A stretch of 64,000 bases of DNA. It comes from Microcystis elabens FACHB-917. GTDB lineage: Bacteria > Cyanobacteriota > Cyanobacteriia > PCC-6307 > Cyanobiaceae. Shown one piece after another: positions 10,803 to 51,016 of the stretch (position 1 is the first letter of the stretch; the number at the start of each line of letters is the position of its first letter). The stretch is taken from the NCBI RefSeq assembly GCF_014698445.1, contig NZ_JACJSZ010000006.1:57133-121132 (forward strand). Reading direction: 5' to 3'. The notes beneath the pieces are model-generated. The model made no database searches, was not told where the DNA came from, and saw only the letters and a program-made list of their open reading frames with translations. Made by a program: the position numbers and the translations under genes.

Positions 10803-11954
10803 TCAGCGCAGGCAGGCCATCGGATGGCGCGGCGCCACCCCCAGGGCCTTGGCCACACCCGGGTGGCACACGGCGCCATCCACGGTGTTCAGGCCGCTGA
10901 GCAGTTCGGGCCGGTCGGTGACCGCCTCCAGCAGGCCGCGGCCCGCCATCACCAGGATGTAGGGCAGGGTGACGCTCACCAGCGCCTCGGTGGAGGTGAA
11001 GGGCACGGCGCCGGGCATGTTGCCCACGGCGTAGTGCTGCACCCCATGGATCGTCACCACCGGATCGGTGTGGGTGGTCTCGCGGCTGGTGGCGATGCAA
11101 CCCCCCTGGTCGATGGCCACATCCACGATCACCGAACCCGGCCGCATGCGCTGCACCAGCTCCTCCCCCACCAGGGTGGGGGCCCGGCCGCCGGGCAGCA
11201 GCACGGCGCCGATCAGCAGGTCGGTTCCCGGCACCAGCCGCTCGATCAGGCTGCGGCTGCTCACCAGGCTCGTCATCCGGCCGCGCCGGTAGGATTCCAG
11301 GCCTCGCAGCCGGTGCGGCGAGCGATCCAGCAGGAACACCTCCGCGTCCATGCCGGCGGCGATGCGGGCGGCATTCCAGCCCACGCTGCCCGCCCCCAGC
11401 ACCACCACCCGCGCCGGTCGCACGCCGGTGCAGCCGCCCATCAGGATGCCCCGGCCGCCGTGGGGCCGCTCCAGCAGGTGGGCGCCCACCTGGGCCGCCA
11501 GCCGGCCGGCGATTTCGCTCATCGGCGCCAGCAGCGGCAGGCTGCCGTCTTCGAGCTGCACGGTTTCGTAGGCCACCGCTGTGGTGCCGGCCTCGAGCAG
11601 GGCGTGGCCCACCTCGGGATAGGCGGCCAGGTGCAGGTAGGTGAACAGCACCAGATCGGGCCGCAGGAACGCAAACTCCTCCGGCTGCGGCTCCTTCACC
11701 TTCACCACCAGATGGGCGGCCCAGGCCTCCTCGCGGCTCACGAGCCGGGCGCCGACGGCCCGGTAGTCGTCGTCGCTGATGCCGGCGCCGAGGCCGGCAT
11801 CAGCCTGGATGCGCACCTCCATGCCCTGGCTGATCAGCTCCCGCACCCCGTCGGGGGTGAGGGCCACCCGCTGCTCATCCCGCTTGATCTCCCTTGGCAC
11901 GCCGATGCTGGCCATCGGGGACGTCAGGGGAGCCGCCAGGCCGGTGCTTGCCAT
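10803..11954 (-). CDS. ald: alanine dehydrogenase
   Basis: A 383-residue enzyme that reversibly deaminates L-alanine to pyruvate with NAD. The N-terminal catalytic domain begins at ASIGVPREIKRDEQRVALTP, and the Rossmann segment is VVLGAGSVGWNAARIAAGMDAEV. VIVDVAIDQGGCIATSRETTH and GVQHYAVGNMPGAVPFTST are family hallmarks. The longer start gives a 13-residue leader; an in-frame ATG directly before ASIGVPREIK (at 11915) would give 370 residues, closer to the usual length. It is convergent with the methyltransferase gene. Confidence 0.93.
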   Translation of the reverse strand: MASTGLAAPLTSPMASIGVPREIKRDEQRVALTPDGVRELISQGMEVRIQADAGLGAGISDDDYRAVGARLVSREEAWAAHLVVKVKEPQPEEFAFLRPDLVLFTYLHLAAYPEVGHALLEAGTTAVAYETVQLEDGSLPLLAPMSEIAGRLAAQVGAHLLERPHGGRGILMGGCTGVRPARVVVLGAGSVGWNAARIAAGMDAEVFLLDRSPHRLRGLESYRRGRMTSLVSSRSLIERLVPGTDLLIGAVLLPGGRAPTLVGEELVQRMRPGSVIVDVAIDQGGCIATSRETTHTDPVVTIHGVQHYAVGNMPGAVPFTSTEALVSVTLPYILVMAGRGLLEAVTDRPELLSGLNTVDGAVCHPGVAKALGVAPRHPMACLR

Positions 11955-11986: not shown

Positions 11987-12703
11987 CTAAGCCCGGCCCG
12001 CTCCCTGGCCCGCCGCCAGGCTTGGGTATCGAGCGGCGATTCGCGACAGTGGCGGACGCTGCCCCAGCAGCTTGCTGCCCATCGCCGTGGGCGGCGCACT
12101 GGAGGCGGCAAAGCGGAGATCGAAACTGACCCGGCTGCAGGCGGTGTGATTGGCCACCGTGCCATGGCTGAGCAGGCCGCCATCAAAGAACAGGGCCTGA
12201 CCATGGAGCACCGCAATCGGCTGATGGCGGCCGCTGTCGTAGTCGTCTTCCACCCAGAGCGTGTTGCCGGCGCAGCAATCGGTGACGGGCAGCCAGAGAT
12301 TGATCTGCTCCAGGCGGCCCGTCACATCCGCATCGCGATGCCAGCGACTCACCGAACCGGTGCCGGCGAGATGCACACGCATCTTGGGGCGTTGCGCATA
12401 GGAGAGACGGCCGCCGAAATGGCGCACCAGCAGCTCCCGCACAAAACGCTCATAAATCGTGTAGAAACCGCAGCACAGTGGCAGCCGTTGCATGCGCTCG
12501 CGCAGGCGCAGATTGTCGGCGTAGCTGGGGCTGCGGCCGGGGCGGATCCAGTGCGACTGATGCAGCGTTTCCAGATCCGGCACCGCAAACACCGCCTCGC
12601 GCAAAAAGCGGGCAAATGGATAGCGATCGCGGTCATACTCGAGCAGCCAGGCGGCGCGCATCCCAGCCACCGGGCTCCAGCCCTCCCCGGGCGCCTGGCT
12701 CAT
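11987..12703 (-). CDS. phytanoyl-CoA-dioxygenase-like 2OG/Fe(II) oxygenase
   Basis: A 238-residue protein with a jelly-roll oxygenase signature. H122 and D124 in VSRWHRDADV form the HxD pair. H180 in GLLSHGTVANH is the distal metal His, and R191 in ACSRVSFDLRF is placed to bind 2-oxoglutarate. The beta strands LEQINLWLPVTDCCAGNTLWV and VLHGQALFFDGG fit the fold. Its ATG overlaps the stop of the OphMA-like methyltransferase gene (ATGA), indicating translational coupling. A hydroxylase acting on the same product as the methyltransferase is my inference. It is the last gene of the island operon. Confidence 0.75.
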   Translation of the reverse strand: MSQAPGEGWSPVAGMRAAWLLEYDRDRYPFARFLREAVFAVPDLETLHQSHWIRPGRSPSYADNLRLRERMQRLPLCCGFYTIYERFVRELLVRHFGGRLSYAQRPKMRVHLAGTGSVSRWHRDADVTGRLEQINLWLPVTDCCAGNTLWVEDDYDSGRHQPIAVLHGQALFFDGGLLSHGTVANHTACSRVSFDLRFAASSAPPTAMGSKLLGQRPPLSRIAARYPSLAAGQGAGRA

Positions 12704-15048
12704 GGCAGCCGCCTGGCCAGGGAGCGATTGATGATCTGCGCATAGAGCGCCGCCCGCTCCCACTTGTGCCAGATCAGCCCCCCCAGCAGCCAGGGCCGCT
12801 GGGCCTGCAGGGTCTGCAGGCTGCGCCAGGCGCCGGGGGAGAGGCCAAAGTCGGGTGGCTGGCGCAGATCTCCCTCCGCCACCGGCACCAGCCCCACCAC
12901 CGCCTGGCCCTTCACCTGGCCGTGGAGCACCGGCCGCAGGCTGATCGGATCGAGCAGCAGCGTCAGCTGGCCGCGCTCCGCCCCCGCCGGTCCATCGCTC
13001 CAGTTGAGTTGCCCGTTCTGCGCCTGGCCCGCACTGGCCGCGCCGTTGAGCCAGAGGCCCTCGCCGCTGAGCCGCAGGTGCCGCAGGCCGGCGTGGCCTT
13101 TCAGCGCGTAGTCGCCCCACAGACAGGACGGGAGCTCCGGTTGCTTGCACCAGTGGCGTTCCAGATCAAAGCGCTCGCCGCCGCAGAGCAGCTGGCGACC
13201 CTGCAGCAGCAGGAGGCCCTCCAGGTCCCGCCCGTTGAGGCTCAGCCGCAGCTGGCGCCCCAGGTCGGCGGACTCCACCATCTCCAGCACCAGCTCTCCG
13301 GCGCCGGAGCGATAGCGCCCCACCGCCATGGCCGGAGGCTGATGACCCGGCTGCACCTCCTGGAAGATCAGCCGATGGTCCGCCGGCACCGCCTCACCCT
13401 CGGGCCAGAGGCTCCCCAGCAGGCGCCGCCGGCCGCGGACGTCGAGATCGGTGCGCAGGAAGCCATGGCAGGGCTGGGCCGCCGTCGCCCGCCAGCGCAG
13501 CACCCCGCGCCGGTAGCGGAAGCGCTCGATCGGCTGGCCATCGAGCAGCAGCCGGGCCCGCTCGCCATCCCCCTGCAGCACCAGCAGGTGCTCCGACTGG
13601 CTCGATTGGTAAACACCGTTCCAGGGGAAGAGGCGGTCGCGCTGGAGCAGATCGATGTCGGTGCGCATGCGGCCCCACTGGCAGGCGCCATGGCCTTCGG
13701 TGGCTGCCCAGGCCTCCAGGGCGGCCAGCTCGAGCGCGCCATCGCCGCTGGCGAGGAGTTGGCCCAGGCGACGCAACAGGGGCCGCTGCCGGAAGAGGGC
13801 TTCCAGCAGCTGGCGGTTGGCGGGGCAGACCACCTGGCTGCCCTTGGCGGCCACCTGCAGGGCGCCGGCGTCGCGGCTGGCCAGCAGGGAGCGCTCGCGA
13901 TCCGTGAGATCGGCGAATTCAGGCACCGCCAGGGCGGCGTGGGGATCGTCGCGGTAGCGATCGGCCAGCTCCTGATCGAGGCGCAGGGCGATCAGAAAGC
14001 GATTGGCGGCCGTTTCCCCCTGCCAGTGGTAGCCGGCGGGCACCTGGAAGTGGGCAAAGGCGGCGAAGGCCTTGCGCTCCCGCGGCCCGTAGTGGCCGAT
14101 CCGTCGCAGCGGCGAGGCCACGGGCTTCGGCTGCTGCCCCGGCGCGAGCATCCCCAGGCGCTGCATCATCGCCGCATCGGGGGGAGCGGCGTCGCGGGGG
14201 GCCAGATAGAAGGTGGAGATGCCCGTCACGCGCGCCTGGGTGTCGGGATCATGGAGGGCGCTGAGGGGGTAGTGCTCGATCACGGGGGGGATCGTGGGGA
14301 AGCGGGAAGCGATGTAGTTGGTGACCGGATAATCGGCGCCGTAGTGCTGCTGCAGGTAGCGGATGAAGATCGAGAAGTTGTCATTGATGTAGCCCTTGCG
14401 GCGATAGCCCATCTCGCCGATCAGGCCCACCTGCCAGAGCACCACATGCAGCTGGGTGCAGGGCAGGCGTGCGCGGATCAACATGTCGGTGGCCTCCTGC
14501 ATCTGCATGCCGGGATGGGCGGGATCCACGCCCAGATCGACACAGAGGCAATCGAGCGCCGATACGCTGGGGCGCATCACGGCATGGTGGCCTTCGCGCC
14601 GGGCGATCTCGATGGCACGATGGGTGGAGAGCACAAAGATGCCGGGATGGCCGTAGTAAATGGCCACCACTTTCTTGCCCTGGCGAAGCGGTGCCAACAT
14701 CGCCTCGGTCATCTGCATGTAGGTGGTGTAGCGCACCTTGCTGTCGTCATACAGCACATACAGATCCAGAGCATCGGGCCGGCGCTGCTTGATCCAGGTG
14801 ACGGTGGCTGGATCCGCCACGCAGAAGAACACGGCATCGGCGCTGCGGATCAGCTCCTCATCGCCGAGGGTGAAGCCGAGGATGCCGATGCCCGAGCCGA
14901 GGATCGTGAGGCTGCCGGGCTGTTGGGGAGGAGTGGCCGGCGGGGTGTCCTGGATGGCCTCGGCCTGGGCCGTGATCTGGGCGGCGAGCTGCTGCCAGGC
15001 GCGGGCGTGCTGCTCCTGGCTGGGGAAGGGAGTGGGGGTGATGGTCAT
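12700..15048 (-). CDS. borosin-type (OphMA-like) alpha-N-methyltransferase with large beta-rich C-terminus
   Basis: A 782-residue protein in three parts. Residues about 45-285 are a tetrapyrrole-methylase-fold SAM domain beginning GSLTILGSG. They match my memory of the omphalotin enzyme OphMA almost motif for motif: YDDSKVRYTTYMQM, IYYGHPGIF, SVSALDCLCVDLGVDP and VTGISTFYLAP. Y100, R106, Y110 and Y131 or Y132 line up with the OphMA catalytic residues Tyr66, Arg72, Tyr76 and Tyr98. Residues about 325-402 are helical (FLIALRLDQELADRYRDDPHA, then FADLTDRERSLL) and resemble the OphMA clasp/substrate-binding helices. Residues about 410-782 contain three roughly similar beta-rich units starting at NGVY 478, VGRY 577 and WGDY 645, then a terminal helix. 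OphMA ends in a short methylated core; no such core is obvious here. A plain porphyrin or cobalamin methylase is unlikely. Confidence 0.8.
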   Translation of the reverse strand: MTITPTPFPSQEQHARAWQQLAAQITAQAEAIQDTPPATPPQQPGSLTILGSGIGILGFTLGDEELIRSADAVFFCVADPATVTWIKQRRPDALDLYVLYDDSKVRYTTYMQMTEAMLAPLRQGKKVVAIYYGHPGIFVLSTHRAIEIARREGHHAVMRPSVSALDCLCVDLGVDPAHPGMQMQEATDMLIRARLPCTQLHVVLWQVGLIGEMGYRRKGYINDNFSIFIRYLQQHYGADYPVTNYIASRFPTIPPVIEHYPLSALHDPDTQARVTGISTFYLAPRDAAPPDAAMMQRLGMLAPGQQPKPVASPLRRIGHYGPRERKAFAAFAHFQVPAGYHWQGETAANRFLIALRLDQELADRYRDDPHAALAVPEFADLTDRERSLLASRDAGALQVAAKGSQVVCPANRQLLEALFRQRPLLRRLGQLLASGDGALELAALEAWAATEGHGACQWGRMRTDIDLLQRDRLFPWNGVYQSSQSEHLLVLQGDGERARLLLDGQPIERFRYRRGVLRWRATAAQPCHGFLRTDLDVRGRRRLLGSLWPEGEAVPADHRLIFQEVQPGHQPPAMAVGRYRSGAGELVLEMVESADLGRQLRLSLNGRDLEGLLLLQGRQLLCGGERFDLERHWCKQPELPSCLWGDYALKGHAGLRHLRLSGEGLWLNGAASAGQAQNGQLNWSDGPAGAERGQLTLLLDPISLRPVLHGQVKGQAVVGLVPVAEGDLRQPPDFGLSPGAWRSLQTLQAQRPWLLGGLIWHKWERAALYAQIINRSLARRLP

Positions 15049-15101
15049 GGTGTTGTGAAACGGTGCGAAAGGTTTTAGATGTGGGGCTATCGAATCATCG
15101 C

Positions 15102-15122
15102 GGCAAAAGGTTCGCCTTTGCC
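15102..15122 (-). promoter_or_regulatory. hairpin in the leader of the OphMA-like gene
   Basis: GGCAAAAGG-TTCG-CCTTTGCC forms an 8-9 bp stem with one bulged A and a four-base loop, 54 bp upstream of the methyltransferase ATG. No T run follows on the minus strand, so a terminator role is not supported. It could stabilise or control the 5' leader. Confidence 0.3.
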
Positions 15123-15198
15123 ATCACGATCAAATGGCTGCGATTCTTAAAATAAGCGAATGAATGCAACGCCCCGCCTCAATAACCAGCAACGGTTG

Positions 15199-15281
15199 TT
15201 AGCCTGAAGCAAAGTGCTAGTTAAGCTGAAATGCTAATTAAGCCGAAACGCCAACTAAGCTGAAGCGAAACGGAAACTAAG
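15199..15281. repeat. short imperfect direct repeats between the repeat protein and methyltransferase genes
   Basis: About four and a half units built around TAAGCYGAAR..., spaced 17-22 bp (starts near 15199, 15221, 15238, 15256 and 15278), run up to and slightly into the stop of the upstream gene. The surrounding spacer 15049-15276 is clearly AT-richer than the core genes. A binding-site array or a replication-slippage product are both possible. Confidence 0.5.
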
Positions 15282-18279
15282 TGGCGCTATTGCCACTGAG
15301 GGTGGTCATGGTCAACGTGGCACTCAAGCAGGCAATGGCTGAGCGCCACTGCGTGTCTTGCAATTGGGTCCAGCTGGAGCCGTTATAGGCCTGAACAGAA
15401 CCATTCCCGAGCCCAACCACAACCTGGGGATTGCCACTGCCGCTCCAAGTCACTTCCATGCAAGTCACATCGGTGCTCCAGCCCATACCCTGTAACTGGG
15501 TCCAGCCGCTGCCGTTGTAGTACTCCACCGCGCCATCACCGAGCCCGACCACCACTTGGGGGTTGCCAGTTCCGATCCAATTCACATCCATGCAATTCAC
15601 ATAGGTGCCCCAGCCCGTGCCCTGCAACTGGCTCCAGCCGCTGCCGTTGTAATACATCACCGCGCCACTGGTGAGCCCCACCACCACCCGAGGCTCGGCT
15701 GTCGTCCACTGCACCGCCAGTTGCCTGGCGTTCGAGTCCCAACCCGTGCCCGCCAGCTGAATCCAGAAGCTGCCGTTGTAGTACTGAACGGAGCTATCTC
15801 CCAGACCCACGACAACTTGAGGCGTGCCGGGAACGTTCCAATTGACCGCCATCGAATTTACATAGGTTTTCCATCCCATGCCCTGCAGTTGACTCCAGCC
15901 GCTGCCGTTGTAGTACTCCACAGCGCTATCACCCAGCCCCACCAGCACCTGGGGGTTGCCACCTCCGATCCAATTCACTTCCATGCAATTCACATAGGTG
16001 CTCCAGTCCGTGTCCTGCAACTGGATCCAGACGCCGCGGCCGTTGTAATACTCCACCGCGCCACTGGTGAGCCCCACCACCACCCGGGGCCCCAGTGTCG
16101 TCCACTGCACAGCCAGCTGTCTGGCGTTCGAATCCCAACCCGTACCCACCAGCTGCATCCAGCCGTTGCCGTTATAGTACTGAACGGAACTATCTCCCAG
16201 TCCCACAACAACTTCAGGAATGCCATAGACGCTCCAATTCACCGCCATTGAATTCACATAGGTTTTCCAGCCCATGCCTTGCAGTTGACTCCAGCCGCTG
16301 CCATCGTAGTATTCAACAGCAGAATCACCTAGGCCCACAACGAGTTGGAGCAGCGGATAGGGAGATGTGATGGCCGAGAGATAGTTCAGCGATGTCTGGC
16401 ACCCCACCAAGACCGGCGGGGAAACGTTGTTATAAGTATAGTTGGCAAGAAGATTGTACGCCTCGTATTGTTCACTGCTGCTGGCAAAGGCACTCATTTG
16501 GCTCACGAGCGCTGATTGCGCCTGCGGCGTCCATTGCCAACTATTGGCGGCATTTTGGGCTGTGCTATTTGGAGTAGAGAGAATGGAGCTAAGCACCATT
16601 TGCTGGCTGGTGATCGAAGGCTGGGCCTGCTGCACCCAATCGGCAAAGGTGCTCCAGCACTGCTGGGGGGTGTTGTTGGGATTGAGCATGTAATTCACCA
16701 ACAACCCGAGGCCCGTGGACTGCTGGGGTGCCATGGAATTCATATCGTCTACTGCCGCAGATTTCCAGACGCCAAGCAATTCCTGGGCCGAAATCATACA
16801 GACCATGATCTCCAGATTTTCCACCAGGGCCGGGAAACCCTTGTCCATGATCCAGCCGCCGAGCTGATTGAGCAGGCTGTTGACCCCACCCTTGGGCACC
16901 TCGACATCCGTATCGGTATCCGTATCGATATCGGTGTCGGTGTCTGTATCGGTGTCGGTCACGTTGTCGGTGTCGGTGACGACATCCACATCGCTATCAA
17001 TGTCAACGTCAATATCCACGTCGACATCGATAATGGCAAAAACATCCACGTCGATGTCCACATCGACGTCGATATCCACATCCGTATCCACATCGGTATC
17101 TACCACGGTATCGGTGTCTTCGACGATGTCCGTGTCGATGTCTGTATCGACGTCGACATCGACATCCACATCCACATTGATCGGATCAATCTCCTCGCCC
17201 AGCTCCGCGATTGGATCGGCCGTGGCGGCCTGGCTGGAGAGTTTTTCGTTGATGGAGGACACCAGCTTGCCGAGGTTGCGAAGCAGGAAAGCCATGCCGT
17301 CGGCCACCCCACTGAGCACAAACTCCGCCATGTTCAACACCATCAGCAGCTGCACCGTCCGAAACGACACAAAGGCCATGTCGTAGGCCGCCACCCACCA
17401 GGGAATGGTGGGATCGGCGTAGGGCTGGGCGATCAGGCTGGTGCCGTTCAGGGTGCCGCTCAGGCAGAGCACGATTTGATCGGGGCTTCCCTCCCAGGAC
17501 AAACTGCGCGGGATGCCGGCCAGCCACAGCCCTTCACTGCTGCTGCCGCCGCTTGAACTCAACACCCCGCCGCTCACACTCAACGGTGGCGTGAGTGCGG
17601 GCGCATTGGCGGGATCAGCTGCCGAATAGCTGGCACTGCCATTGGCAATCGTGAGGGTGCCAACGCTGACGGTGGGCAGCACGAGGTTGCTGGTGGAGGT
17701 GGTATCCGGCTCATAACAGAAGTAGGTGCCACTCCAGGGATAGAGCGTGTTGTTGGCCCAGTACGCCAGGGCAGACATCTCCGGGGCGTTGCCGCCAGCG
17801 ATGCCGTTGGCGGTGCAGAAGGCGGCCACATTGGTTTCCAGCTCAGCCGGGCTGGTAGAGGTGTAGTAAATCTCGCTGAACTGCAAGGCCTCTGGTGAAT
17901 AGGGCTGGGCCATGATCTGCAGGTAAAAACTCCAGCTGGCCTGGGCTGTTGTTAAGTCTGCTTCGGTGACGGTGGTGGATGGTTTTTTGCTGGTCAGCGA
18001 AGGCACCCACACCAAAACAGGGAATTGGTTGTCCTGTTGGGCCAATACCAGGCGGCTCGCTGGCGTGGAGGGGGTGAAGGTGCCACTGCCATTGGCGGGA
18101 ATGACGGCAATCTGGGTGTAGGTCGGTGCATAGTCAGCGGCGTCCGTACTGGGCGGTGAGCTGGGCGGGTTGTTGCTGAAGGTGTAATACACAATCAGCG
18201 GGCTCGCCAGCTGGTTAGTGACTGTGCAGGGATTGCCGCTTGTCGAGCCTGCGCTGCTGGAGTTGCCTGAAGCTGTCAT
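15277..18279 (-). CDS. large repeat protein with Asp-x tract and eight beta repeats (island protein A)
   Basis: A 1000-residue protein of no family I recognise. The N-terminal 350 residues contain NPCTVTNQLASPLIVYY, a motif shared with the next gene upstream (NTCSVTNSL), and are rich in Ser/Thr/Pro. A hydrophobic stretch at about 310-360 (AAYDMAFVSFRTVQLLMVLN, ADGMAFLLRNLGKLV) precedes an acidic tract at about 365-458 that alternates Asp with Val/Ile/Thr. A helical middle follows, then eight repeats of about 43 residues (about 645-996) of the form VVGLGDSAVEYYNGSGW with paired Trp/Tyr, suggesting a beta-propeller or carbohydrate-binding fold. No classical signal peptide is visible. I chose the ATG before TASGNSSS; a TTG 15 bp upstream is an alternative. 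It is in the same direction as the methyltransferase and may be its substrate or partner (inference). Confidence 0.8.
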   Translation of the reverse strand: MTASGNSSSAGSTSGNPCTVTNQLASPLIVYYTFSNNPPSSPPSTDAADYAPTYTQIAVIPANGSGTFTPSTPASRLVLAQQDNQFPVLVWVPSLTSKKPSTTVTEADLTTAQASWSFYLQIMAQPYSPEALQFSEIYYTSTSPAELETNVAAFCTANGIAGGNAPEMSALAYWANNTLYPWSGTYFCYEPDTTSTSNLVLPTVSVGTLTIANGSASYSAADPANAPALTPPLSVSGGVLSSSGGSSSEGLWLAGIPRSLSWEGSPDQIVLCLSGTLNGTSLIAQPYADPTIPWWVAAYDMAFVSFRTVQLLMVLNMAEFVLSGVADGMAFLLRNLGKLVSSINEKLSSQAATADPIAELGEEIDPINVDVDVDVDVDTDIDTDIVEDTDTVVDTDVDTDVDIDVDVDIDVDVFAIIDVDVDIDVDIDSDVDVVTDTDNVTDTDTDTDTDIDTDTDTDVEVPKGGVNSLLNQLGGWIMDKGFPALVENLEIMVCMISAQELLGVWKSAAVDDMNSMAPQQSTGLGLLVNYMLNPNNTPQQCWSTFADWVQQAQPSITSQQMVLSSILSTPNSTAQNAANSWQWTPQAQSALVSQMSAFASSSEQYEAYNLLANYTYNNVSPPVLVGCQTSLNYLSAITSPYPLLQLVVGLGDSAVEYYDGSGWSQLQGMGWKTYVNSMAVNWSVYGIPEVVVGLGDSSVQYYNGNGWMQLVGTGWDSNARQLAVQWTTLGPRVVVGLTSGAVEYYNGRGVWIQLQDTDWSTYVNCMEVNWIGGGNPQVLVGLGDSAVEYYNGSGWSQLQGMGWKTYVNSMAVNWNVPGTPQVVVGLGDSSVQYYNGSFWIQLAGTGWDSNARQLAVQWTTAEPRVVVGLTSGAVMYYNGSGWSQLQGTGWGTYVNCMDVNWIGTGNPQVVVGLGDGAVEYYNGSGWTQLQGMGWSTDVTCMEVTWSGSGNPQVVVGLGNGSVQAYNGSSWTQLQDTQWRSAIACLSATLTMTTLSGNSAT
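15290..16345. repeat. eight tandem 43-codon repeats inside island protein A
   Basis: Each unit reads roughly VVGLGxxxVxYYNGSGWxQLQGxGW...V.W. Units 1-3 and 4-6 are copies of a three-unit block (GDSAVEYY, GDSSVQYY, TSGAVEYY or TSGAVMYY), and units 7-8 are further variants. Several stretches are close to identical at DNA level, so the array expanded by recent duplication. Confidence 0.85.
16905..17185. repeat. hexanucleotide-like tract encoding an Asp-x dipeptide repeat
   Basis: About 280 bp of GTCGAT/GTCGGT/ATCCAC-like hexamers encode about 94 residues of Asp alternating with Val, Ile or Thr, broken once by a small hydrophobic insert (VFAII). The alternation would put all carboxylates on one face of an extended strand, suiting Ca2+ or other cation binding. 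The DNA is slippage-prone. Confidence 0.85.
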
Positions 18280-18310
18280 CACAACGAGCTGCAATTGAGT
18301 TTTGGAAAAC

Positions 18311-18334
18311 GCCCCACTCCCTCAGGAGAGGGGC
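18311..18334 (-). terminator. hairpin between island genes B and A, possible attenuator
   Basis: GCCCCACTCC-CTCA-GGAGAGGGGC pairs with one mismatch. On the minus strand it is followed at once by GTTTTCC. It lies in the 76-bp gap between the stop of gene B and the start of gene A, so it could reduce or process read-through between the two. Confidence 0.45.
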
Positions 18335-18355
18335 TGTAGAAGAACCGATGCCGAA

Positions 18356-20131
18356 TTATTCGGCGAGGTCGGCCAAGTCGTCTGCATCATCAAAGTCACC
18401 ATCTTCATCTTCATCCTCCTCCTTCTCGTCCTCTTCTTCGTCTCCTTCCTCCTCCTCTGCCGTCGCATCCTGCTGTTGAACTTCAGCGGAAGAGGAATCT
18501 CCTAGAGCTTGATTCTCAGAAACAATCGTCGACTGGGTCGAGGAGATCTGATCCTGGGTTGACTCAAGCTCGCTACTGGCATCACTGGATTCAGGATTAA
18601 TATCCTCAAGTTCAGTCTCTTCCTCATTTGTGTCCTCAACCTCGTCATTAATAGTTGAATTGTCTTCAAGGGCAGCCTGCATTTCTTCTTCCGTATATTG
18701 CTCATCAATTTCGGATGCTTCAGACTCTTCTGCCTCAGCGTTCAGGACACTCGACTCTGCATTAGCCTGCTCCTCGCCCACGGCGTCGCCCGTTTTCAAC
18801 TCCTCATCGTTGCCAGCATCTTCTAATTTCTCCTGAGACTCCTCCGCGAGATCGGCTTGCTTGTCTGCAATCTCGCCCTCGGATGGCGTCTCGTCACTGC
18901 TGCATTTCTCTTTGATCCACTCGCACAGCTTTACTCCGATATCAATCATAAAATAGAGAGACATCGCGATCTGGATGATCCGGAAAGCCTTGGATGTCAA
19001 AACATCGTTGAGACCTTTGCTAAACTTGGCCCCTTCTGACTCCTTCAATACGACGGAAGAGCCGATGACATTACTGCCATTAATCACGCCTACCAACGCT
19101 TGGATGGGGGTGCCCAGATCTGCGGAATTACCCGTCAGTTGGGCCATATCCATAAAAGTGGTTTGCAGGCAGAAGCCGCTGAAGCCATCGTTATTATTAG
19201 CCACCAACTGTCCATTTTGGAAGTTAAGGCCAACGGCAGCCCCACCCTTGGGATTCCAGGTGATGGCGTAGCCCGCGTTGGCATCGGAAATCGCGGCCGG
19301 CGTGCTCCCCGACTGGGTGAAAACAACGGTTCCCAGGCTGGAAAATTGCTCTGTCTCCGTCACGCTGGTACTGTCGGTGGCACTGGAGCTGTCACTGGTT
19401 GCTGGGGTGACCGTGTAGAAGTGATAGGTGTAAGACTGCTGAAAGTTTGCCCAAATGTATGCATAGGCCGAAGCATAGCTGCTAACGGAACTATAGATAT
19501 TGAAATTCACATTCGCAAAGCTGGTGGTTCCAGCAAAGAATGTGTTAACTGCTGTACTTGAACCAGTCGCCGGGCTGGCACTGTTATCTTGATTCAGCGC
19601 AGCCGTAAATTGCTGGGCCAGAGGCGATGAAGGATAGGCCATCATGTTTTGCAAAAACATGTAGGCATTGGCCCCTGAGCTGGAATTACTAGGAGCAGCC
19701 TGTGGCAGGGAGACGGCCGCAAAGTTTCTACCAATCTTGATCTCGCCTACCGCCGCCACTGGGAAGTAGTTATTAGCTTGGGAAACTAGAAGGTTGTAAA
19801 CAGTGTTGACCTGGGTGGTGCTGCCAGGTTGGTAGTAGGGCAGCAGGTTGAGCGTGCCCGTTTCGTTGACCGGCAGAACACTGGATGTTGTACTGCTCTC
19901 GCTGCTGGCACTGGCGCCCTCATCGATAAAGTTGAGCAAAGTCAAGTCGCTCTGGAGATAACCCTGAGCCGTGCTTGTGCTGGATGTGTTGTAGCCACTG
20001 ATCACCACAATGCCCCCATCCCAACCCGTTTGGGCTGGCGTGCTGGGGCTGGTAGGCAGGATGAGGCTGTTGGTCACCGAACAGGTGTTCTGGGCTGTGG
20101 TGGTGGTGCTGCTGCTTGGAGTTTGGGACAT
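18356..20131 (-). CDS. acidic-tailed paralogue of island protein A (island protein B)
   Basis: A 591-residue protein, unrecognised. It shares with protein A the N-terminal CxVTNxL motif (NTCSVTNSL), a Ser/Thr-rich beta region and a later LQNMMAYPSSPLAQQF segment that parallels LQIMAQPYSPEALQF. A hydrophobic helix at about 385-410 (FRIIQIAMSLYFMIDIGVKL, then CEWIKEKC) is followed by about 180 residues dominated by Glu, Asp and Ser, ending in a run of acidic residues. The order N-domain, hydrophobic segment, acidic tract is the same as in protein A. The acidic tail is disordered by composition. It lies between the lysozyme-peptidase gene and protein A. Confidence 0.78.
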   Translation of the reverse strand: MSQTPSSSTTTTAQNTCSVTNSLILPTSPSTPAQTGWDGGIVVISGYNTSSTSTAQGYLQSDLTLLNFIDEGASASSESSTTSSVLPVNETGTLNLLPYYQPGSTTQVNTVYNLLVSQANNYFPVAAVGEIKIGRNFAAVSLPQAAPSNSSSGANAYMFLQNMMAYPSSPLAQQFTAALNQDNSASPATGSSTAVNTFFAGTTSFANVNFNIYSSVSSYASAYAYIWANFQQSYTYHFYTVTPATSDSSSATDSTSVTETEQFSSLGTVVFTQSGSTPAAISDANAGYAITWNPKGGAAVGLNFQNGQLVANNNDGFSGFCLQTTFMDMAQLTGNSADLGTPIQALVGVINGSNVIGSSVVLKESEGAKFSKGLNDVLTSKAFRIIQIAMSLYFMIDIGVKLCEWIKEKCSSDETPSEGEIADKQADLAEESQEKLEDAGNDEELKTGDAVGEEQANAESSVLNAEAEESEASEIDEQYTEEEMQAALEDNSTINDEVEDTNEEETELEDINPESSDASSELESTQDQISSTQSTIVSENQALGDSSSAEVQQQDATAEEEEGDEEEDEKEEDEDEDGDFDDADDLADLAE

Positions 20132-20295
20132 GACAGAGACAATGAGACGGATGAAAATGTAACGGATGAAAAGGAGACGTGGACTGGCTCAAAAGCCTGT
20201 TGATGACTCACTGTTATGGCGCAATTGTTCATGGGGGATGGAAAACACCTGGGTGCGGTTTCATCGTGATTTCTTCCTGGGATGGCTGGGTTGTT

Positions 20296-22119
20296 TCAGC
20301 GCTGCGCCACCAGATACCAGCCGCCACTTCCCTGGGGTCGCCAACGCGGCTCCCAGTTGGCGTAGGAATAATGCTGGCGGGCACCGTTATGGTTCTGCGG
20401 GTAGCCGCCATTCACCAGATCGCAGCTGCCATAGGGGTCGTTCATGATCACGCCGCTGTCGTCGTAGCCGATCACCACGGTCCAATGGCCGCCTCCGCTC
20501 GGCGCGCTGGGCGGACCATGGTGCAACCAACCCACGGCCACCGGTCGTCCGGCATCGATTTCGTTTTTCAGGGTTTGCAGGCTGCCATCGGTGCAGAACT
20601 CCGCCTGCAGGCCCAGGTGGCGCAGCGCCGCCAGTTGCGCCTCCGCACTGGTGGAATCCCCATAGGATTGCCGCAGAGCGTTGTAATCATCTTCATTGGG
20701 CTCCTTGCCCCAGAAGGCGGCCAGCATGGCCGAACTGGCGGAGAAGCAATCGCGCCAGCCCTGGCCATCGTCCATCGCCAACTGATCGAACCAGGGCACG
20801 TTCAGGGGATTGGCATGGGCGGCAACCGTGCGGCCACTGGTGGCGCCAGCAGCGGCGGATGGCGTCGCTGGCGCCGCTGGGGTAGAGGGGCCGGCCATCC
20901 CCTGGCTCCAGAGATTGGCCTCCGCCTGCCGACGCCGCAGCAACCCATCGCTCACCGCCGTGCCCGGATCGCAATAGAGCAGCAACCCAGCGGGCACACC
21001 CGACCAATCCTTCTGCCGCAGCAGCCGACTGATCGTGTCAAAGCCGGCGTTGCCATAGAAATCCTCACCCAGATTCCAGGCGAAGGAGATCAACGCACAC
21101 TGTTGCTCTGCCGCCATCGAGCTCCAGTAAGGAATCGTGCCGGCGAGATGGCGGGCGCAGCCATTCACACCGCTCAGCAACTGGGCATCGCCCTCCGCCT
21201 GGCTGATCGTGTCGCCCGGTTGCACGGGCCGGCCATCGAGGCTGGTGAAGCCATACCCGATCGTCCAGGGTTCGCCGCCACTGGCCGGATCCGGATAGGC
21301 GTGGTCGACAAAGCCCTCGAATTCGGCAATCAGGCGCAGGGCTGCTTCATAGGGAGGCGACGCCGGGGTGGCTGGCGCCAGCAGCGAGTGGCTGGCCGCA
21401 GGACCGGAGAGGCGGTGGGGGGTGATCGGCCCCACCCCTTTCACCGCGGGTCGCTCCAGGGTGCCGGGCTTGAGGGCGCTGACCGTGAGCGGCTTGGTGG
21501 GCGACTCCGCAGGCTGCCGCAAGGGCGCCTGGGCTGCCGGCGCCGGCTCCTGGGCTGGCGCGGCTCGACCGGCTGGCAGGCGGCCGGACACCTTGTTCGC
21601 CACATAGGGGGCAAAGAGGGTGAGCCCGGAGTAAAGAAAGGTGCTCACCGCCACCGTGGAGGCCGGCATCTGGCAGGTGAGGCCGTAGGTGTAGAGCGAA
21701 AAGATGCCGAAACCCACATAGATCAGCAGAATCGCCACCGAACCGGCCAGGGCGATCAGCCGGCTGGTACTGGCCTCCATCAGGATCACCGGTTTGGGTG
21801 GGCCATTGATCGCCAGGCTGCGGATGCGCGCCTGGCTGTCTCCCTGGGATTGGGCCCAGTGCTCATCCAACGGAATCGAGAGATGGGTGGGTTCCGACAC
21901 CGCATTCGCCAGCGACCAGCCGCCGCGCTGCAGTCGTACGGAAATCAGGATCAGCACGCTGATGATGGCGGCAAAGATCAAGCTGGTGATGGTCATCACC
22001 AGGGGCGCACTCATGGTCTTGCAGATGGCTGCGGACCCATTCAGTTGCTCTTGCGCGGCCGCTGGCAACGTGAGGCCCGACAGCAGAGCGGCAAGCAGGA
22101 TTCTGCTTCGCAGTTTCAT
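20296..22119 (-). CDS. membrane-anchored GH24 lysozyme fused to C39-like peptidase
   Basis: A 607-residue protein. The ATG at 22119 gives a good signal peptide (KLRSRILLAALLSGLTLPAAAQ). TM segments follow at about 40-62, 122-143 and 153-172, then a Pro/Ala linker. Residues about 255-405 are a phage-type lysozyme (GH24): FEGFVDHAYPDPASGG with likely catalytic E268, then TIGYGFT and SFAWNLGEDFYGNAGF. Residues about 438-607 are a papain-like C39-type peptidase: C458 in WRDCFSASSAM, H545 in GGHWTVVIGYD and D561 in MNDPYG. C39 peptidases usually remove double-glycine leaders during export; lysozyme domains open the cell wall for large secretion machines. Here the two are joined, suggesting passage and maturation of a product across the envelope (inference). 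Confidence 0.82.
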   Translation of the reverse strand: MKLRSRILLAALLSGLTLPAAAQEQLNGSAAICKTMSAPLVMTITSLIFAAIISVLILISVRLQRGGWSLANAVSEPTHLSIPLDEHWAQSQGDSQARIRSLAINGPPKPVILMEASTSRLIALAGSVAILLIYVGFGIFSLYTYGLTCQMPASTVAVSTFLYSGLTLFAPYVANKVSGRLPAGRAAPAQEPAPAAQAPLRQPAESPTKPLTVSALKPGTLERPAVKGVGPITPHRLSGPAASHSLLAPATPASPPYEAALRLIAEFEGFVDHAYPDPASGGEPWTIGYGFTSLDGRPVQPGDTISQAEGDAQLLSGVNGCARHLAGTIPYWSSMAAEQQCALISFAWNLGEDFYGNAGFDTISRLLRQKDWSGVPAGLLLYCDPGTAVSDGLLRRRQAEANLWSQGMAGPSTPAAPATPSAAAGATSGRTVAAHANPLNVPWFDQLAMDDGQGWRDCFSASSAMLAAFWGKEPNEDDYNALRQSYGDSTSAEAQLAALRHLGLQAEFCTDGSLQTLKNEIDAGRPVAVGWLHHGPPSAPSGGGHWTVVIGYDDSGVIMNDPYGSCDLVNGGYPQNHNGARQHYSYANWEPRWRPQGSGGWYLVAQR

Positions 22120-22148
22120 GATGATGGGGGAGGTGATGTGTTGATCAA

Positions 22149-23015
22149 TCAATCTCTGTCTTCAACTTTGGCCGTGGATTCTGCAGGTGATGCTTTGCGC
22201 AGCAGAACCAAGGCCTCCCTGGAGGCGAAGTCGTCATTCATTCCGAAAGTAGGCTGATCAACCCGATTGAGCTGTTGATCGATCAGGCTGATGTACAGGC
22301 CCAGTTGCTGGCGATCGAGCAGGTTCAATCTCTGGCTCGGGCTCACGTATTCCTGATTGGCGATGCTCGTGGCGAAGCTGCGCGTGAGCGCGATTGTTCG
22401 TTCGTAGAGGGCACGGCTGGTGTTGAGATTGGCATTGAGATTGAAGGTTTCGATCGAGACCACCGCCAGGCCCAGCGTGAACGCCGATGCCATCAGCACC
22501 GTGAACGGCCAGTGGATCTCGCTCTTCAGACCGTGCACACTCAGCAGCGCCAGCATGGTTGCCGACACCATGGCGGAGCCATTGGCCACCATCACCAGGG
22601 CCTGATAGTTGGCGGAGATCAACTGCATGCTTCGGCAGTGGTAGCGATCCAGCCGCAGCAGCTCCTGGGCCTGCTGGTTCAGACGTTGGCGTTGCGGCAG
22701 CGTGGCACTTGCTAACGCCCCGGTGGGCACGGGCAGGCCTGAAATTGCGGGGGGAATCGCCGGCTGCGTTCGGACCGGATCCAGGTGGCAATAGGCCAGG
22801 TTCTGGGTCCGTCTCTGGGCCTCCTTGCGGCCCACGACCAGCCCGATACCGGCCAGGGTCACCACGGCCATGACCAACGCCATGTGGCCGGATTGGCTGA
22901 GCCGGGCCCGGCGGCGCCCCGGCTTCAGGGCCGGTCGCATCGCGGGCTTGGGCACCGCCATCGCGGTGTTCACCTCCAGCCAGTGGCGCAATGCCTGCCC
23001 AGGGGCTTTCACCAC
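22149..23015 (-). CDS. three-TM membrane protein, unknown, first gene of the island operon
   Basis: A 288-residue protein with a basic N-terminus (KPGRRRARLSQSGH) followed by TM1 (MALVMAVVTLAGIGLVVG), a periplasmic-size helical region (RQRLNQQAQELLRLDRYHCR), two more TMs (VMVANGSAMVSATMLALLSV and FTVLMASAFTLGLAVVSI), and a C-terminal helical domain. The start is GTG; an ATG at MAVPKPAMRP (22961) is an alternative. Only 29 bp separate it from the lysozyme-peptidase gene, so they probably form one membrane complex. No family recognised. Confidence 0.65.
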   Translation of the reverse strand: MVKAPGQALRHWLEVNTAMAVPKPAMRPALKPGRRRARLSQSGHMALVMAVVTLAGIGLVVGRKEAQRRTQNLAYCHLDPVRTQPAIPPAISGLPVPTGALASATLPQRQRLNQQAQELLRLDRYHCRSMQLISANYQALVMVANGSAMVSATMLALLSVHGLKSEIHWPFTVLMASAFTLGLAVVSIETFNLNANLNTSRALYERTIALTRSFATSIANQEYVSPSQRLNLLDRQQLGLYISLIDQQLNRVDQPTFGMNDDFASREALVLLRKASPAESTAKVEDRD

Positions 23016-23376
23016 TTGCTGACTTGCATCGCTGGAGTTGCCAGCAGGTTCATGCCGTTTCGGAGGCCGACCAAAGCACCTTGAACCCTGCCCGGCAGGA
23101 CGGCGAATCCTTTCAGAACTCTTTCAAGCCCGATCGGGCAGCAAGCCGGCTGGGGATGAAAAGAACGGCTGCACGACTGGGTCGATCGTTGACCTCTAAG
23201 CGTTGTCGGTCGCTATTGCCACGCCACGGCAATCGAGGCGTGCGAAAAGTTTGCGGTAATTGCAAGAACAACAAGGCCCCAGGTGATCGCGCCTGAATAT
23301 ACGGTTCACCAGTCCGGTATTCCGCCGCTGTACCAGTCGGCAAACGGTTTAGAATTACTTCCACAAACAGCATTGT
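23016..23376. promoter_or_regulatory. 361-bp divergent intergenic region between island operon and its regulator
   Basis: This gap holds no plausible gene and is AT-richer than its surroundings, especially 23270-23375. It must contain the promoters for the minus-strand island operon and for the plus-strand regulator. A TTGACC box lies at 23189-23194, but no convincing -10 partner is seen, so I mark the region rather than a promoter. Confidence 0.4.
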
Positions 23377-24777
23377 GTGGTGGCCGCAACACTTCGGACT
23401 GGTTGGATAATTGGCCCCTATCAGCTGTTGTCTACGGGAGAGTTGAGCCTGGCGGGAATGGCGGTCAATATCATGCCTCTGCCACGGAAGCTCCTGCTGA
23501 TCCTGGTCCACAACGCAAACCAGACGGTGTCCATCGAGGAGCTCTCCAGCCACCTCTGGCCAGTGCCGCAGGCCGGTGGCAGGGGCAGGCCGAATCAGGC
23601 CAATCTGCCTTTGGTCGTTCACCGTTTGAGGCAGGTTTTTGCCCGTGGCCCCCTCGGGCGAGAAGCGATTCATGGTGTGTACGGCAAGGGCTATCGCCTG
23701 GAGGCCTCGGTGCAAGTGCTCGTCGCCCTGGAGCCTGAGGGCAACGTCCCTCCAGACGCCCAGGTGTTGTCTCCCCGGGGGGCGGAGGGGCGTGAGCAGG
23801 ATCGCCTTCTGCTGAGTGGTCTGTTCTATGCCGAGGCCCATGACCTCTGGCCGGATCGTGATCCCTCCAGCCTGCCCCGCCAGCTGTGGCTGATGCAGCA
23901 AAGCCTCCACCATGACCCCGCCTTCAGCCAGGGCTATCTGGAATTGGGTTATCTGCAGCTCCTTCAGTGTCTCTGGGGTGTGCGCAGCGCCACCAGCACC
24001 CTGCCCGGGCTGCAACAGTTGCTGCGCCTTGGCGATGCGTTGCCCAGCCAGCCTCCGGGCTGGGCCGCGATCAAGGCGGAGGCCATGTCGCTGCTGTTCT
24101 GGCAACCGCTCACCAGCCACCGGCTCTATGCCAACTGGCTCGCCCCCACCCTGCCCCCTGGCCTGCCGCGTTTTTCCTGGGCGCGTCACCTGATCTTCAC
24201 CGGCAGAGCACGCCTGGCCCTTCAGCTCCTCCAATCCCAGGCGCTCCCGGCCCTCAGCCAGGGCTGGCTGGTGATCTCCCTGGCCCACGCGGCCCTGGGG
24301 GAGATCCCGGCGGCCCAGCAGGCCGCCCAGCACCAGTTGGGCTGCAATCCGGCCCTGGTGGGCAGCCGCCTGTTCCTGGCCATGCTCTCGGCCCTGCGGG
24401 GTGACGCCGAAACGGCCACCCGCTCCATCGAGGCCAGCCGCCTACTCGAAAAGCCCTTCCAGGGTTCTCTGGCCCTGGTGGCCTATGCCCTGGCCCAGGG
24501 GAGGCTGCGGCCCCGGGCCCAGCGTCTGCTGGATGAGGCCCTGGCCGTGATCGCCACCGCGCCCGACCAGGCCGGCGCCCTGGGCTACTGGGGCCTGGCC
24601 GCCCTGGCCCTGGATCGCCCCAGCGAAGCGATCGGCCTGCTCAAGCTGAGTGTCCGCCGGCGCTGCTATGCCGCGCCGGCCTTGCTGGCCACCCCCTTTC
24701 TCACCCCCTACGCCACCACCCCCGCCGTTCAGCTGTTCCGCGAGCGGATGGGCCAGGCGTTCGTCATCACCCCCTGA
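23377..24777 (+). CDS. winged-helix (OmpR/CadC-type) transcription regulator with TPR-like C-terminus
   Basis: A 466-residue protein from GTG. Residues about 12-112 are an OmpR-type winged helix: IGPYQLLSTGELSLAG, LPRKLLLILVHNANQTVSIEELSSHLWP (the recognition part) and LVVHRLRQVFARGP...GVYGKGYRLEA (wing). There is no receiver domain. Residues about 145-460 are helical with a TPR-like cadence of repeated Leu/Ala/Trp (LWLMQQSLHHDPAFSQGYLELGYLQLLQ, LAHAALGEIPAAQQAAQHQL). This is the layout of stand-alone CadC-like or SARP/LuxR-like sensors that respond to a ligand or protein. Its divergent position suggests it controls the island operon. Confidence 0.8.
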   Translation: MVAATLRTGWIIGPYQLLSTGELSLAGMAVNIMPLPRKLLLILVHNANQTVSIEELSSHLWPVPQAGGRGRPNQANLPLVVHRLRQVFARGPLGREAIHGVYGKGYRLEASVQVLVALEPEGNVPPDAQVLSPRGAEGREQDRLLLSGLFYAEAHDLWPDRDPSSLPRQLWLMQQSLHHDPAFSQGYLELGYLQLLQCLWGVRSATSTLPGLQQLLRLGDALPSQPPGWAAIKAEAMSLLFWQPLTSHRLYANWLAPTLPPGLPRFSWARHLIFTGRARLALQLLQSQALPALSQGWLVISLAHAALGEIPAAQQAAQHQLGCNPALVGSRLFLAMLSALRGDAETATRSIEASRLLEKPFQGSLALVAYALAQGRLRPRAQRLLDEALAVIATAPDQAGALGYWGLAALALDRPSEAIGLLKLSVRRRCYAAPALLATPFLTPYATTPAVQLFRERMGQAFVITP

Positions 24778-24793: not shown

Positions 24794-26542
24794 TCAGAGA
24801 ATGCCCTCCGTCGCCGCCGCGATCGGCATCCTCCAGCCACTGCCGAAGGCCCGGCCGCTCACCTTCAGGGCCGGCGCGGCCTGGCGGCGCTTGAACTCGG
24901 CGCGCTGCAGCAGCTGGGCCACCCGCTTCACCACCGCCGGGTCAGCCCCCTCGGCCACCAGCTGCTCGGGGCTGGCCAGCTCCTCCACCAGCCGCTTGAG
25001 GATCGGATCGAGCTCGCCGTAGTCGGGCAGGGAATCGCTGTCGAGCTGGTCGGGGCGCAGCTCGGCGCTGGGGGGCTTGCCCCGGATCGCCGCGCCGATC
25101 AGCTCCCCGTCGCCCGGCAGACCGAGATCCGTGCGGCAGGGACCGGAGACCTCGCCGTCCAGCCACTCGCAAAGGCCGAAGACAGTGGTCTTGTAGAGGT
25201 CGCCGATCACCGAGAGGCCGCCGTTCATGTCCCCGTAGAGGGTGCAGTAGCCCACCGCCAGCTCCGATTTGTTGCCGGTGGAGAGCAGCAGGCCCCCCTT
25301 CTGGTTGGCCACCGCCATCAGCAGGGTGCCGCGGATGCGGGACTGCAGGTTCTCCTCGGTGACACCGGCCGGGGGTGCCCCGAGGGCGGGGGGAAGGGCG
25401 GCGGCGAAGGCCTCCATCAGAGGCGCGATCGGCAGCGTGGCGGTGGCCAGTCCGAGCCGCCGCGCCAGGCCCTCGGCATCGGCGAGGGAACCGGCCGAGC
25501 TGAAGGGGGACGGCATGCGCAGCACCTCCACCCGCCCGGGGCCGAGCGCCGCGGCGGCGATCACTGCCACCAGGGCCGAATCGATGCCGCCGCTCAGCCC
25601 CAGCAGGGCCCGCTGGAAGCCGCATTTGGCGGCGTAGTCCCGCACCCCCAGCACCAGCACCCGCAGCAGCTGCTCCCAGGGGTCCGACGGCGGTGGCGGC
25701 GGAGCCGCTTGTGCCGGGGCGGGGGCGGGGGCGGGGGGCGTGGCGCCCTCCGCGCCCAGGGGGGGACCCGCATCCCACAGGCCCAGGTCCTCGGCGGCGC
25801 AGGCCAGGCGCAGCAGGGGCCGGCCGCCGCCATCCAGCACGAAGCTGGCCCCGTCGAAGACCAGTTCGTCGTTGCCACCCACCTGGTTGAGGTACACCAC
25901 CGGCACCCCCAGCCGGGCCGCCGCCCGGGCCGCCAGCCCCTGGCGCACCTCCCCCTTGCCGCGGCCGAAGGGGGAGGCCGAGAGGTTGAGCAGCAGGTCG
26001 AGGCCCAGGGGCGCCAGATCGGCGATCGGATCCACCGCCTCCGGCCAGCGGCTGCGCAGGGTCTCCTCCACCCAGAGGTCCTCGCAGATGGTCAGCCCCA
26101 GACGCCAGGGGCGGCCGCCCGCCTCCAGCTCCAGCACCGCCGGAACGTCACCCGGCAGGAAGTAGCGGCGTTCGTCGAAGACGTCATAGCTGGGTAGCAG
26201 GCGCTTGCGGCCGACGATGCGCCAGCCGCCGCGCTCCACCAGGGCCAGGGCGTTGTACAGCCCCGGCTGGCGCCGGTCGGCCACTGGCTCGGCCACCCCC
26301 ACCAGCAGGGCCAGGTCGGCCGGGCCTTCAGCCGCCAGGGACGCCAGGACCCGCTCCTGGCGCTGGATCAGGGCGGGCCGCAGCAGCAGGTCCCGGGGCG
26401 GGTAGCCCCAGAGCGAGAGCTCGGGGGTGAGCAGCAGGTCGGCCCCGCCGGCACGGGCCCGCCCGGCGGCCGCCAGGATCCGCCGTCCGTTGCCCTCCAG
26501 GTCGCCCACAAGGGGATTGAGCTGGGCCAGGGCGAGGCGCAT
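24794..26542 (-). CDS. nadE: glutamine-dependent NAD+ synthetase
   Basis: A 582-residue two-domain enzyme for the last step of NAD synthesis. The N-terminal nitrilase-type glutaminase (MRLALAQLNPLVGDLEGN, LLLTPELSLWGYPPRDLL, LTICEDLW with the catalytic Cys) is followed by a Pro/Ala linker (about 280-300). The ATP-pyrophosphatase domain then shows LGLSGGIDSALVAVI, LLSTGNKSELAVGYCTLYGDM and the FKRRQAAPALKVSGRAFG tail. The next gene, nadD, ends at its start codon, so the two NAD steps are coupled. Confidence 0.95.
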   Translation of the reverse strand: MRLALAQLNPLVGDLEGNGRRILAAAGRARAGGADLLLTPELSLWGYPPRDLLLRPALIQRQERVLASLAAEGPADLALLVGVAEPVADRRQPGLYNALALVERGGWRIVGRKRLLPSYDVFDERRYFLPGDVPAVLELEAGGRPWRLGLTICEDLWVEETLRSRWPEAVDPIADLAPLGLDLLLNLSASPFGRGKGEVRQGLAARAAARLGVPVVYLNQVGGNDELVFDGASFVLDGGGRPLLRLACAAEDLGLWDAGPPLGAEGATPPAPAPAPAQAAPPPPPSDPWEQLLRVLVLGVRDYAAKCGFQRALLGLSGGIDSALVAVIAAAALGPGRVEVLRMPSPFSSAGSLADAEGLARRLGLATATLPIAPLMEAFAAALPPALGAPPAGVTEENLQSRIRGTLLMAVANQKGGLLLSTGNKSELAVGYCTLYGDMNGGLSVIGDLYKTTVFGLCEWLDGEVSGPCRTDLGLPGDGELIGAAIRGKPPSAELRPDQLDSDSLPDYGELDPILKRLVEELASPEQLVAEGADPAVVKRVAQLLQRAEFKRRQAAPALKVSGRAFGSGWRMPIAAATEGIL

Positions 26543-48023: not shown

Positions 48024-48024
48024 G
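47916..48024 (+). repeat. hsdM 3'-end, copy 1 (genuine)
   Basis: Encodes DEVEHRPPLEILAELRAIEQ and the rest of the HsdM C-terminus, ending in GATGTTGCGATGAG. Near-identical copies recur at 50912-51000 and 51686-51794, and a reduced one at 49405-49440. Confidence 0.9.
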
Positions 48025-48061
48025 CGGCGCTAGCATTCCGCTAGCAATCGGTGTTGGGGCG

Positions 48062-48322
48062 ATGAACACCCTGGTGCTCCGGCAGGTGCCGGATGTGCTT
48101 TACCGCCGCCTCAAGGCGGTAGCAGCGGCGCACCGGCGCTCGATGAATCAGGAGGCGATCCTCGCTCTGGAGGCGGGGCTGCCTGAGTCGCCGATTCCAA
48201 AGCGGCCCACGCTGGAGGAGAGCACGCGCTGGCTGGAGCAGCGGGTGTGGACCCTGCCGGTCCTGGATGACCGCAGCGCCGAGGAGATCCTGGGGTATGG
48301 CAATGACGGTCTCTGCGGCTGA
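48062..48322 (+). CDS. ribbon-helix-helix antitoxin, FitA/VapB-like
   Basis: An 86-residue protein: MNTLVLRQVPDVLYRRLKAVAAAHRRSMNQEAILALEAGL is a ribbon-helix-helix DNA-binding domain (FitA-type; positions 1-40), and the tail WLEQRVWTLPVLDDRSAEEIL would wrap the toxin. An ATG at 48020 overlapping the hsdM stop is in frame and would add 14 residues. It overlaps the PIN toxin gene. Confidence 0.8.
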   Translation: MNTLVLRQVPDVLYRRLKAVAAAHRRSMNQEAILALEAGLPESPIPKRPTLEESTRWLEQRVWTLPVLDDRSAEEILGYGNDGLCG

Positions 48323-48731: not shown

Positions 48732-48739
48732 ACCGGGGC

Positions 48740-49344: not shown

Positions 49345-49404
49345 GGCAGCTCCCGCAACGGTTACATGTCACCCTAGCCGGAGCCAGCGGTGCTGGCCAG
49401 GGCT

Positions 49405-49440
49405 GGTGCACAAAGCGCCGGAGGGGATGCTGCGGTGACC
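49405..49440 (+). repeat. degenerate hsdM 3'-end copy before the AlbA_2 gene
   Basis: GCTGGTGCAC and GGAGGGGATGCTGCG match the two ends of the repeated hsdM tail, with the middle deleted. The final GTGA provides the start of the next gene, in the same way the intact copies provide ATGA. Confidence 0.55.
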
Positions 49441-50999: not shown

Positions 51000-51016
51000 G
51001 GGGCACGCAAGCGCGA

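Follow-up and report, generated by a model that had tools for sequence, protein, structure and literature searches.

The window analysed here, a stretch of 64,000 nucleotides from Microcystis elabens FACHB-917 (contig NZ_JACJSZ010000006.1, positions 57,133 to 121,132), carries a seven-gene island between the genes for alanine dehydrogenase and NadE. Its central genes encode a borosin-type methyltransferase (MT), a large protein (A), a paralogue of the latter (B) and an oxygenase (OX), and comparison with related loci suggests a split borosin system in which MT would probably act on a tract within A. All seven genes listed by a first-pass annotation of this DNA, namely a regulator, a protein with three transmembrane segments, a lysozyme-C39 protein, A, B, MT and OX, are present as it described them. 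The features are as follows.

24794-26542: nadE, flanking core gene (name assigned from sequence)
23377-24777, forward strand: regulator, divergent winged-helix protein with a long C-terminal part (Trans_reg_C, E 1.4e-7)
22149-23015, reverse strand: membrane protein (three transmembrane segments according to the first-pass annotation), no Pfam match
20296-22152, reverse strand: lysozyme-C39 membrane protein (phage lysozyme, 6.4e-20; Peptidase_C39_2, 2.5e-13)
18356-20131, reverse strand: protein B, paralogue of A, no Pfam match above cut-off
15277-18294, reverse strand: protein A, predicted precursor, 1005 residues, no Pfam match above cut-off
16897-17175, reverse strand: 93-residue tract of A (residues 374-466), predicted core for MT
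12700-15048, reverse strand: MT, borosin-type backbone alpha-N-methyltransferase, 782 residues (TP_methylase, 2.8e-9)
11987-12703, reverse strand: OX, 2-oxoglutarate/Fe(II) oxygenase, 238 residues (PhyH, 4.5e-5)
10803-11954: alanine dehydrogenase, flanking core gene (name assigned from sequence)

The ATG of OX at 12703 gives a 4-base overlap with the MT stop, and the membrane-protein gene overlaps the lysozyme-C39 gene by 4 bases as well. The G+C content is 0.53-0.66 across 15-24 kb, as against about 0.70-0.75 outside.

In MT, the S-adenosylmethionine (SAM) domain and the clasp occupy about residues 43-403, followed by a helical linker and beta modules (404-782), and homology to OphMA runs over both domain and clasp, through residue 403. 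The SAM domain is homologous to those of OphMA and SonM; clustering with cobalamin or siroheme methylases, named by the first-pass annotation as an outcome that would speak against its OphMA/borosin assignment, was not seen, the domain siding with OphMA and SonM, and CysG, SUMT and Cob enzymes were not the closest match of MT. Residues Y97, Y100, R106, Y110 and Y132 align with OphMA Y63, Y66, R72, Y76 and Y98 (numbered after PDB titles, with a chain offset of one) and are invariant in 55 sequences. The assignment is thus borne out by SAM domain, clasp and catalytic residues alike. A pattern search of MT gave no alternating tract, the C-terminal end consisting of beta modules and a helix, and the feature of fused type III enzymes, a core tract on their own C-terminus, is lacking. 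Its sequence marks MT as a borosin methyltransferase in which the active-site residues and the clasp are intact and a tract of its own is absent.

Protein A, counted from a TTG start (an ATG lies at 18279), consists of an N-domain (about residues 20-370), the tract (374-466), a helical domain (about 470-645) and a repeat extension (about 646-1005). Of the 93 residues of the tract, 39 are Asp, 23 Val, 16 Thr and 9 Ile, and such a tract was matched by pattern in all 51 A homologues listed (P0121-P0171), as a short run in P0162, P0166 and P0167. In 47 aligned A sequences, 1289 of the 1337 residues standing between two Asp in the tract columns are Val, Ile or Thr, two being Leu and three Ala; many of the invariant or nearly invariant columns of the alignment lie within the tract, which is the most constrained part of those compared. 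Between the window and the genomes G305 and G176, the tract is identical at 93 of 93 residues, with a synonymous divergence (pS) of 0.68 and 0.71, while the N-domain shows a nonsynonymous divergence (pN) of 0.034 and 0.072 at a pS of 0.21 and 0.45. Since three species share the tract unchanged despite their differing DNA, so long a chain, with its predicted backbone modification, is probably required by the cell. A mere DNA microsatellite was rejected as the cause of the tract, as 17 different codons are used and codon differences leave the protein the same. The earlier suggestion that A might be the substrate is supported by this alternating Asp tract, which had been overlooked and is like reported borosin cores.

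The A and B N-domains align with an hhalign probability of 98.3 (E 2.4e-14, 242 columns), which confirms the paralogy proposed for the two proteins. B has an acidic C-terminal region; no alternating tract was found in it by pattern, at L001 or at other loci, nor in the listed C-termini of B homologues. After the tract, window A continues for 539 residues, about 176 of which form the helical domain, and A homologues of 600-680 residues mostly continue for 174-206. The repeat extension of A (residues 646-1005; 15280-16359) is of the VVVGLGDSAVEYYNGSGWSQLQG type; several of the longer B homologues (783-1030 residues; P0199-P0206, P0211, P0216) seem, by profile comparison, to bear similar repeats, which may mean that the extension passes from one of the two proteins to the other.

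For a survey of homologue loci, profiles were compared with the six-frame open reading frames (ORFs) of the best 80 of 545 relatives. The MT C-terminal domain matched 33 of the 80 loci (in an ORF separate from MT in L038 and L040), of which 20 have A, 21 the tract, 23 OX and 17 B; the other 47 loci gave no A and four OX. Nineteen of the 20 A loci carry OX (it is absent from L008) and 17 carry B, and the three without B (L007, L015, L020) are contigs starting within 2 kb of A. Organism names at the A loci include cyanobacteria, Methylococcaceae, Massilia, Pseudoduganella, Paraburkholderia, Vibrio, Cellvibrionales, Sneathiella, Paracraurococcus, Paenibacillus, Nannocystis, Pedobacter, Flavobacteriaceae and one metagenome-assembled genome (MAG) labelled Williamsia. 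Among the 13 loci without A, L004 and L005 start just before MT (L005 retains the end of A), and L023 has a short precursor. A missing link to conserved neighbours had been named as the second outcome that would count against the first-pass proposal; A, B and OX in fact recur beside the MT-type enzyme in several phyla. The same survey qualifies the claim that the island is one coherent unit: all seven genes are there, and yet they amount to a four-gene cassette, B-A-MT-OX, found in several phyla, joined by three genes found only within the genus.

Three architectures were distinguished. The tract lies inside A at 20 loci; in Pseudoalteromonas (L023) it lies in a 94-residue ORF between MT and OX, with genes for a radical SAM protein and a DUF364 protein next in line; and in P0172 (Streptosporangiaceae) and P0173 it forms the C-terminus of the MT protein. 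That the tract changes its place and still stays with an MT-type enzyme is our main argument for considering it the probable core. On the sequences compared, the tract of A is placed between two conserved domains, its residue order is kept while codons change, and B-A-MT-OX recur together. We therefore regard the system as a likely split borosin, in which MT would act in trans on A and, by prediction, place methyl groups on backbone nitrogens of its 93-residue Asp-(Val/Ile/Thr) tract.

Several loci of the survey deserve mention in their own right. The Pseudoalteromonas system (L023:12865-16927), with an enzyme of about 965 residues, is compact and may be the easiest to test. At L040:1980-4899, a borosin-type enzyme of 393 residues has as its neighbour a protein of 573 residues that combines a W-x-G-x-Y module with a hydrophobic segment and C-terminal TTDV repeats; by its sequence, this protein looks like another split borosin precursor. 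The enzyme of Erwinia phyllosphaerae (L037:9401-12424) ends in AEAAEVAEV repeats, and in those of Bacteroidetes MAGs (L058, L066, L073) a conserved C-terminal domain comes after Asp/Asn runs.

A number of observations weigh against methylation of the A tract by MT. The 80 loci, as best matches, are not a random sample, and ten of the 33 (L022, L024, L027, L028, L030, L031, L034, L037, L038, L040) lack A as well as any alternating tract matched by pattern, without being simply cut before A. Within these ten, a frame just upstream of MT shows a short tract-like stretch in Streptomyces/Kitasatospora (L022, L024, L034), and in Desulforamulus (L031) a 163-residue ORF directly after MT has alternating Glu/Val at its C-terminus; in L027, L028 and L030 no tract-like stretch was seen. 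Synonymous divergence is higher in the tract (0.68-0.71) than in its flanks (0.21-0.45), to which swapping of repeat DNA may have contributed, the amino-acid order being kept regardless. Because the tracts of G305 and G176 differ little from one another (pS 0.066), the three genomes amount to about one deep comparison. In hhalign, neither the N-domain nor the middle part of A matched the MT clasp, the clasp/binding domain being what recruits SonA; the A N-domain matched the MT C-terminus weakly (probability 45.6, E 2.1e-4) around a W-x-G-x-Y motif, and the B N-domain gave no match to the MT C-terminus.

If the split borosin is accepted, A would be presented to an MT dimer, perhaps via its N-domain and the C-terminal beta modules of MT, where the shared W-x-G-x-Y match may mark a docking module, and B could serve as a second scaffold. 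If MT works as OphMA and SonM do, the tract would pass through its active site and receive methyl groups step by step, mainly at Val, Ile and Thr. These residues are the likelier sites since KchMA, a bacterial type III enzyme, prefers Ala, Val and Leu with some Asp, placing up to 11 methylations within its residues 742-796 according to PMC11395268. Hydroxylation of tract residues by OX would come next; H122-x-D124, H180 and R191 of this enzyme are kept in 93-96% of 27 rows. These correspond to the H-x-D/H/R set that binds the metal and 2-oxoglutarate in such oxygenases. In the weakest step of this scheme, proposed for the cyanobacteria, the lysozyme-C39 protein may open the peptidoglycan and perhaps cut A, and the modified chain would come to lie in the envelope or leave the cell. 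Should A be the substrate, the core would be roughly eight times as long as the twelve-residue omphalotins, its residue order being shared between species and an oxygenase gene lying next to that of the enzyme. It could then be tested which amides are methylated, what OX adds, and whether the chain is excised or remains part of a protein.

As to this last point, the tract may possibly stay in A as a protease-resistant amphipathic rod, with an Asp face opposite a Val/Ile/Thr face, which would be among the longest N-methylated chains and be displayed on the envelope with the help of the lysozyme-C39 protein; we put this forward tentatively. Were it true, B-A-MT-OX would be a rod-building machine common to several bacterial phyla. 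Rather unlikely, in our view, is the course of a classical ribosomally synthesized and post-translationally modified peptide, with the methylated tract excised by the C39 domain and leaving the cell as a free peptide. C39 peptidases do mature exported peptides, and the C39-like domain is nearly unchanged in four genomes, including the stretches with Cys and His. The lysozyme-C39 gene, however, was found only within the genus, so that the maturation and export via C39 proposed earlier finds no comparative support; fusion to a lysozyme points to peptidoglycan, no transporter gene is common to the compared loci (by clustering, with Pfam run on ten neighbour genes only), and the tract is not at the end of A, a conserved helical domain coming after it. 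Genomes of the genus alone yielded the regulator, membrane-protein and lysozyme-C39 genes: of 83 loci, L006, the G305 contig, has them, as do L084, L116 and L117, the latter three holding the lysozyme-C39 and membrane-protein orthologues; besides MT, A/B and OX, no gene is common to more than three of 23 clustered loci.

We consider it improbable that MT methylates itself as a fused borosin of types I-III, with A and B as partner or surface proteins. Such a role would fit the clasp that MT has of its own, as in OphMA, the tract on the enzyme in P0172 and P0173, and the similar length of KchMA, reported in PMC11395268 to methylate its own C-terminus. Yet the window MT ends in beta modules and a helix with no alternating tract, for which self-methylation was rejected as first choice, and the tract sits in A, where it is more constrained than any other part compared. 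Since Ca2+ can be bound by Asp-rich repeats, the tract of A might be an unmodified structural or metal-binding linker, with MT acting on B, which recurs with A (17 of 20 loci) and has an acidic C-terminus, or on another protein. This, too, is very doubtful: a linker would need neither an exact Val/Ile/Thr order, kept at 93 of 93 positions, nor the exclusion of Leu and Ala (2 and 3 of 1337), the tract follows the enzyme in three architectures, and B homologues are without it. That MT is a tetrapyrrole methylase or another small-molecule enzyme unrelated to peptides is next to untenable and was rejected, as its SAM domain is closer to OphMA and SonM than to siroheme or cobalamin enzymes, and the TP_methylase/YabN-like label given by Pfam and NCBIfam arises because borosin enzymes have that fold too.

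Eleven borosin types (0 and I-X) have been distinguished, to which PMC11395268 adds type XI; in the same paper, PmoM is placed among types V, VII and VIII, about 160 residues follow the type VIII core, type III cores have acidic residues alternating with others, and few mature products are said to be known, for want of a specific peptidase. On the split reading, MT and A would resemble type VIII (PmoM) in that enzyme and putative core lie in separate genes, MT being without and A with the tract, and in that residues follow the putative core (about 160 in that paper, mostly 174-206 in A homologues). A Pseudomonas mosselii enzyme, P0082, a full-length relative, and the A homologue P0143 belong to the MT and A families, and the cassette is for this reason probably the published type VIII, with the identity of PmoM taken from its name only. 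To call the island undescribed, as had been done, is probably too strong, type VIII split borosins with post-core residues being already in print (PMC11395268). The window differs from type VIII by the further repeat extension of A and by the attached regulator, membrane-protein and lysozyme-C39 genes. With OphMA, the omphalotin enzyme, and other fungal fused borosins, MT shares the SAM domain, the clasp (43-403) and the catalytic residues, whereas their core is at the enzyme C-terminus and that of the present system would be in A. SonM and SonA of Shewanella oneidensis (type IV, split) differ, as PMC8429565 describes them, in that SonM lacks the clasp, which MT keeps, and the C-terminal modules, and in that SonA is small and itself carries the binding domain, while A has 1005 residues. 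KchMA, here compared by its description in PMC11395268, is likewise bacterial, of about the length of MT, and methylates aliphatic residues in a long core, but bears this core on the enzyme itself. The literature text searched gave no account of a cyanobacterial form with repeat extension and membrane module, nor of a fixed 93-residue core, and either may exist in other papers.

The seven genes between alanine dehydrogenase and nadE are a real insertion. For 42 genomes of the genus, 40 of which gave a match, the best 30 nadE loci including our own were compared; directly beside nadE, the 29 congeneric loci from other genomes have alanine dehydrogenase in 22 cases, the regulator in three (L102, L108, L112) and neither in four. 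In G305 (L117), the whole seven-gene island is found between the two core genes; for G176, L084 covers it from alanine dehydrogenase up to the regulator gene, and L112 shows that gene next to nadE; and the contig of G307 (L116) takes in the start of B, the lysozyme-C39, membrane-protein and regulator genes and nadE before it breaks off. MT was present in 3 of 299 genomes sampled from the order and A in 2 of 386 sampled from the phylum, own genome included in both, the second A carrier being G439, where an MT relative directly adjoins A. Taken with the 22 of 29 loci in which alanine dehydrogenase stands beside nadE, these counts make the island a rare accessory insertion. Being clean and between two core genes, it makes carriers and non-carriers of one genus comparable, and borosin machinery is thereby placed in picocyanobacteria. 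At the four loci with neither gene within 1.5 kb of nadE (L106, L107, L113, L115), longer stretches (L118-L121) likewise revealed neither alanine dehydrogenase nor regulator; other insertions or a rearrangement may thus occur at this site too.

Elsewhere in the window, type I restriction-modification genes lie at 46149-59256, comprising HsdM (46149-48023), HsdS (51790-52956) and HsdR (55846-59256). Among them are a Schlafen/AlbA_2-Fic-like-C protein (49390-50865) and a GmrSD-type endonuclease (52953-54569), and the G+C content of this region falls to 0.50 at 52-53 kb.
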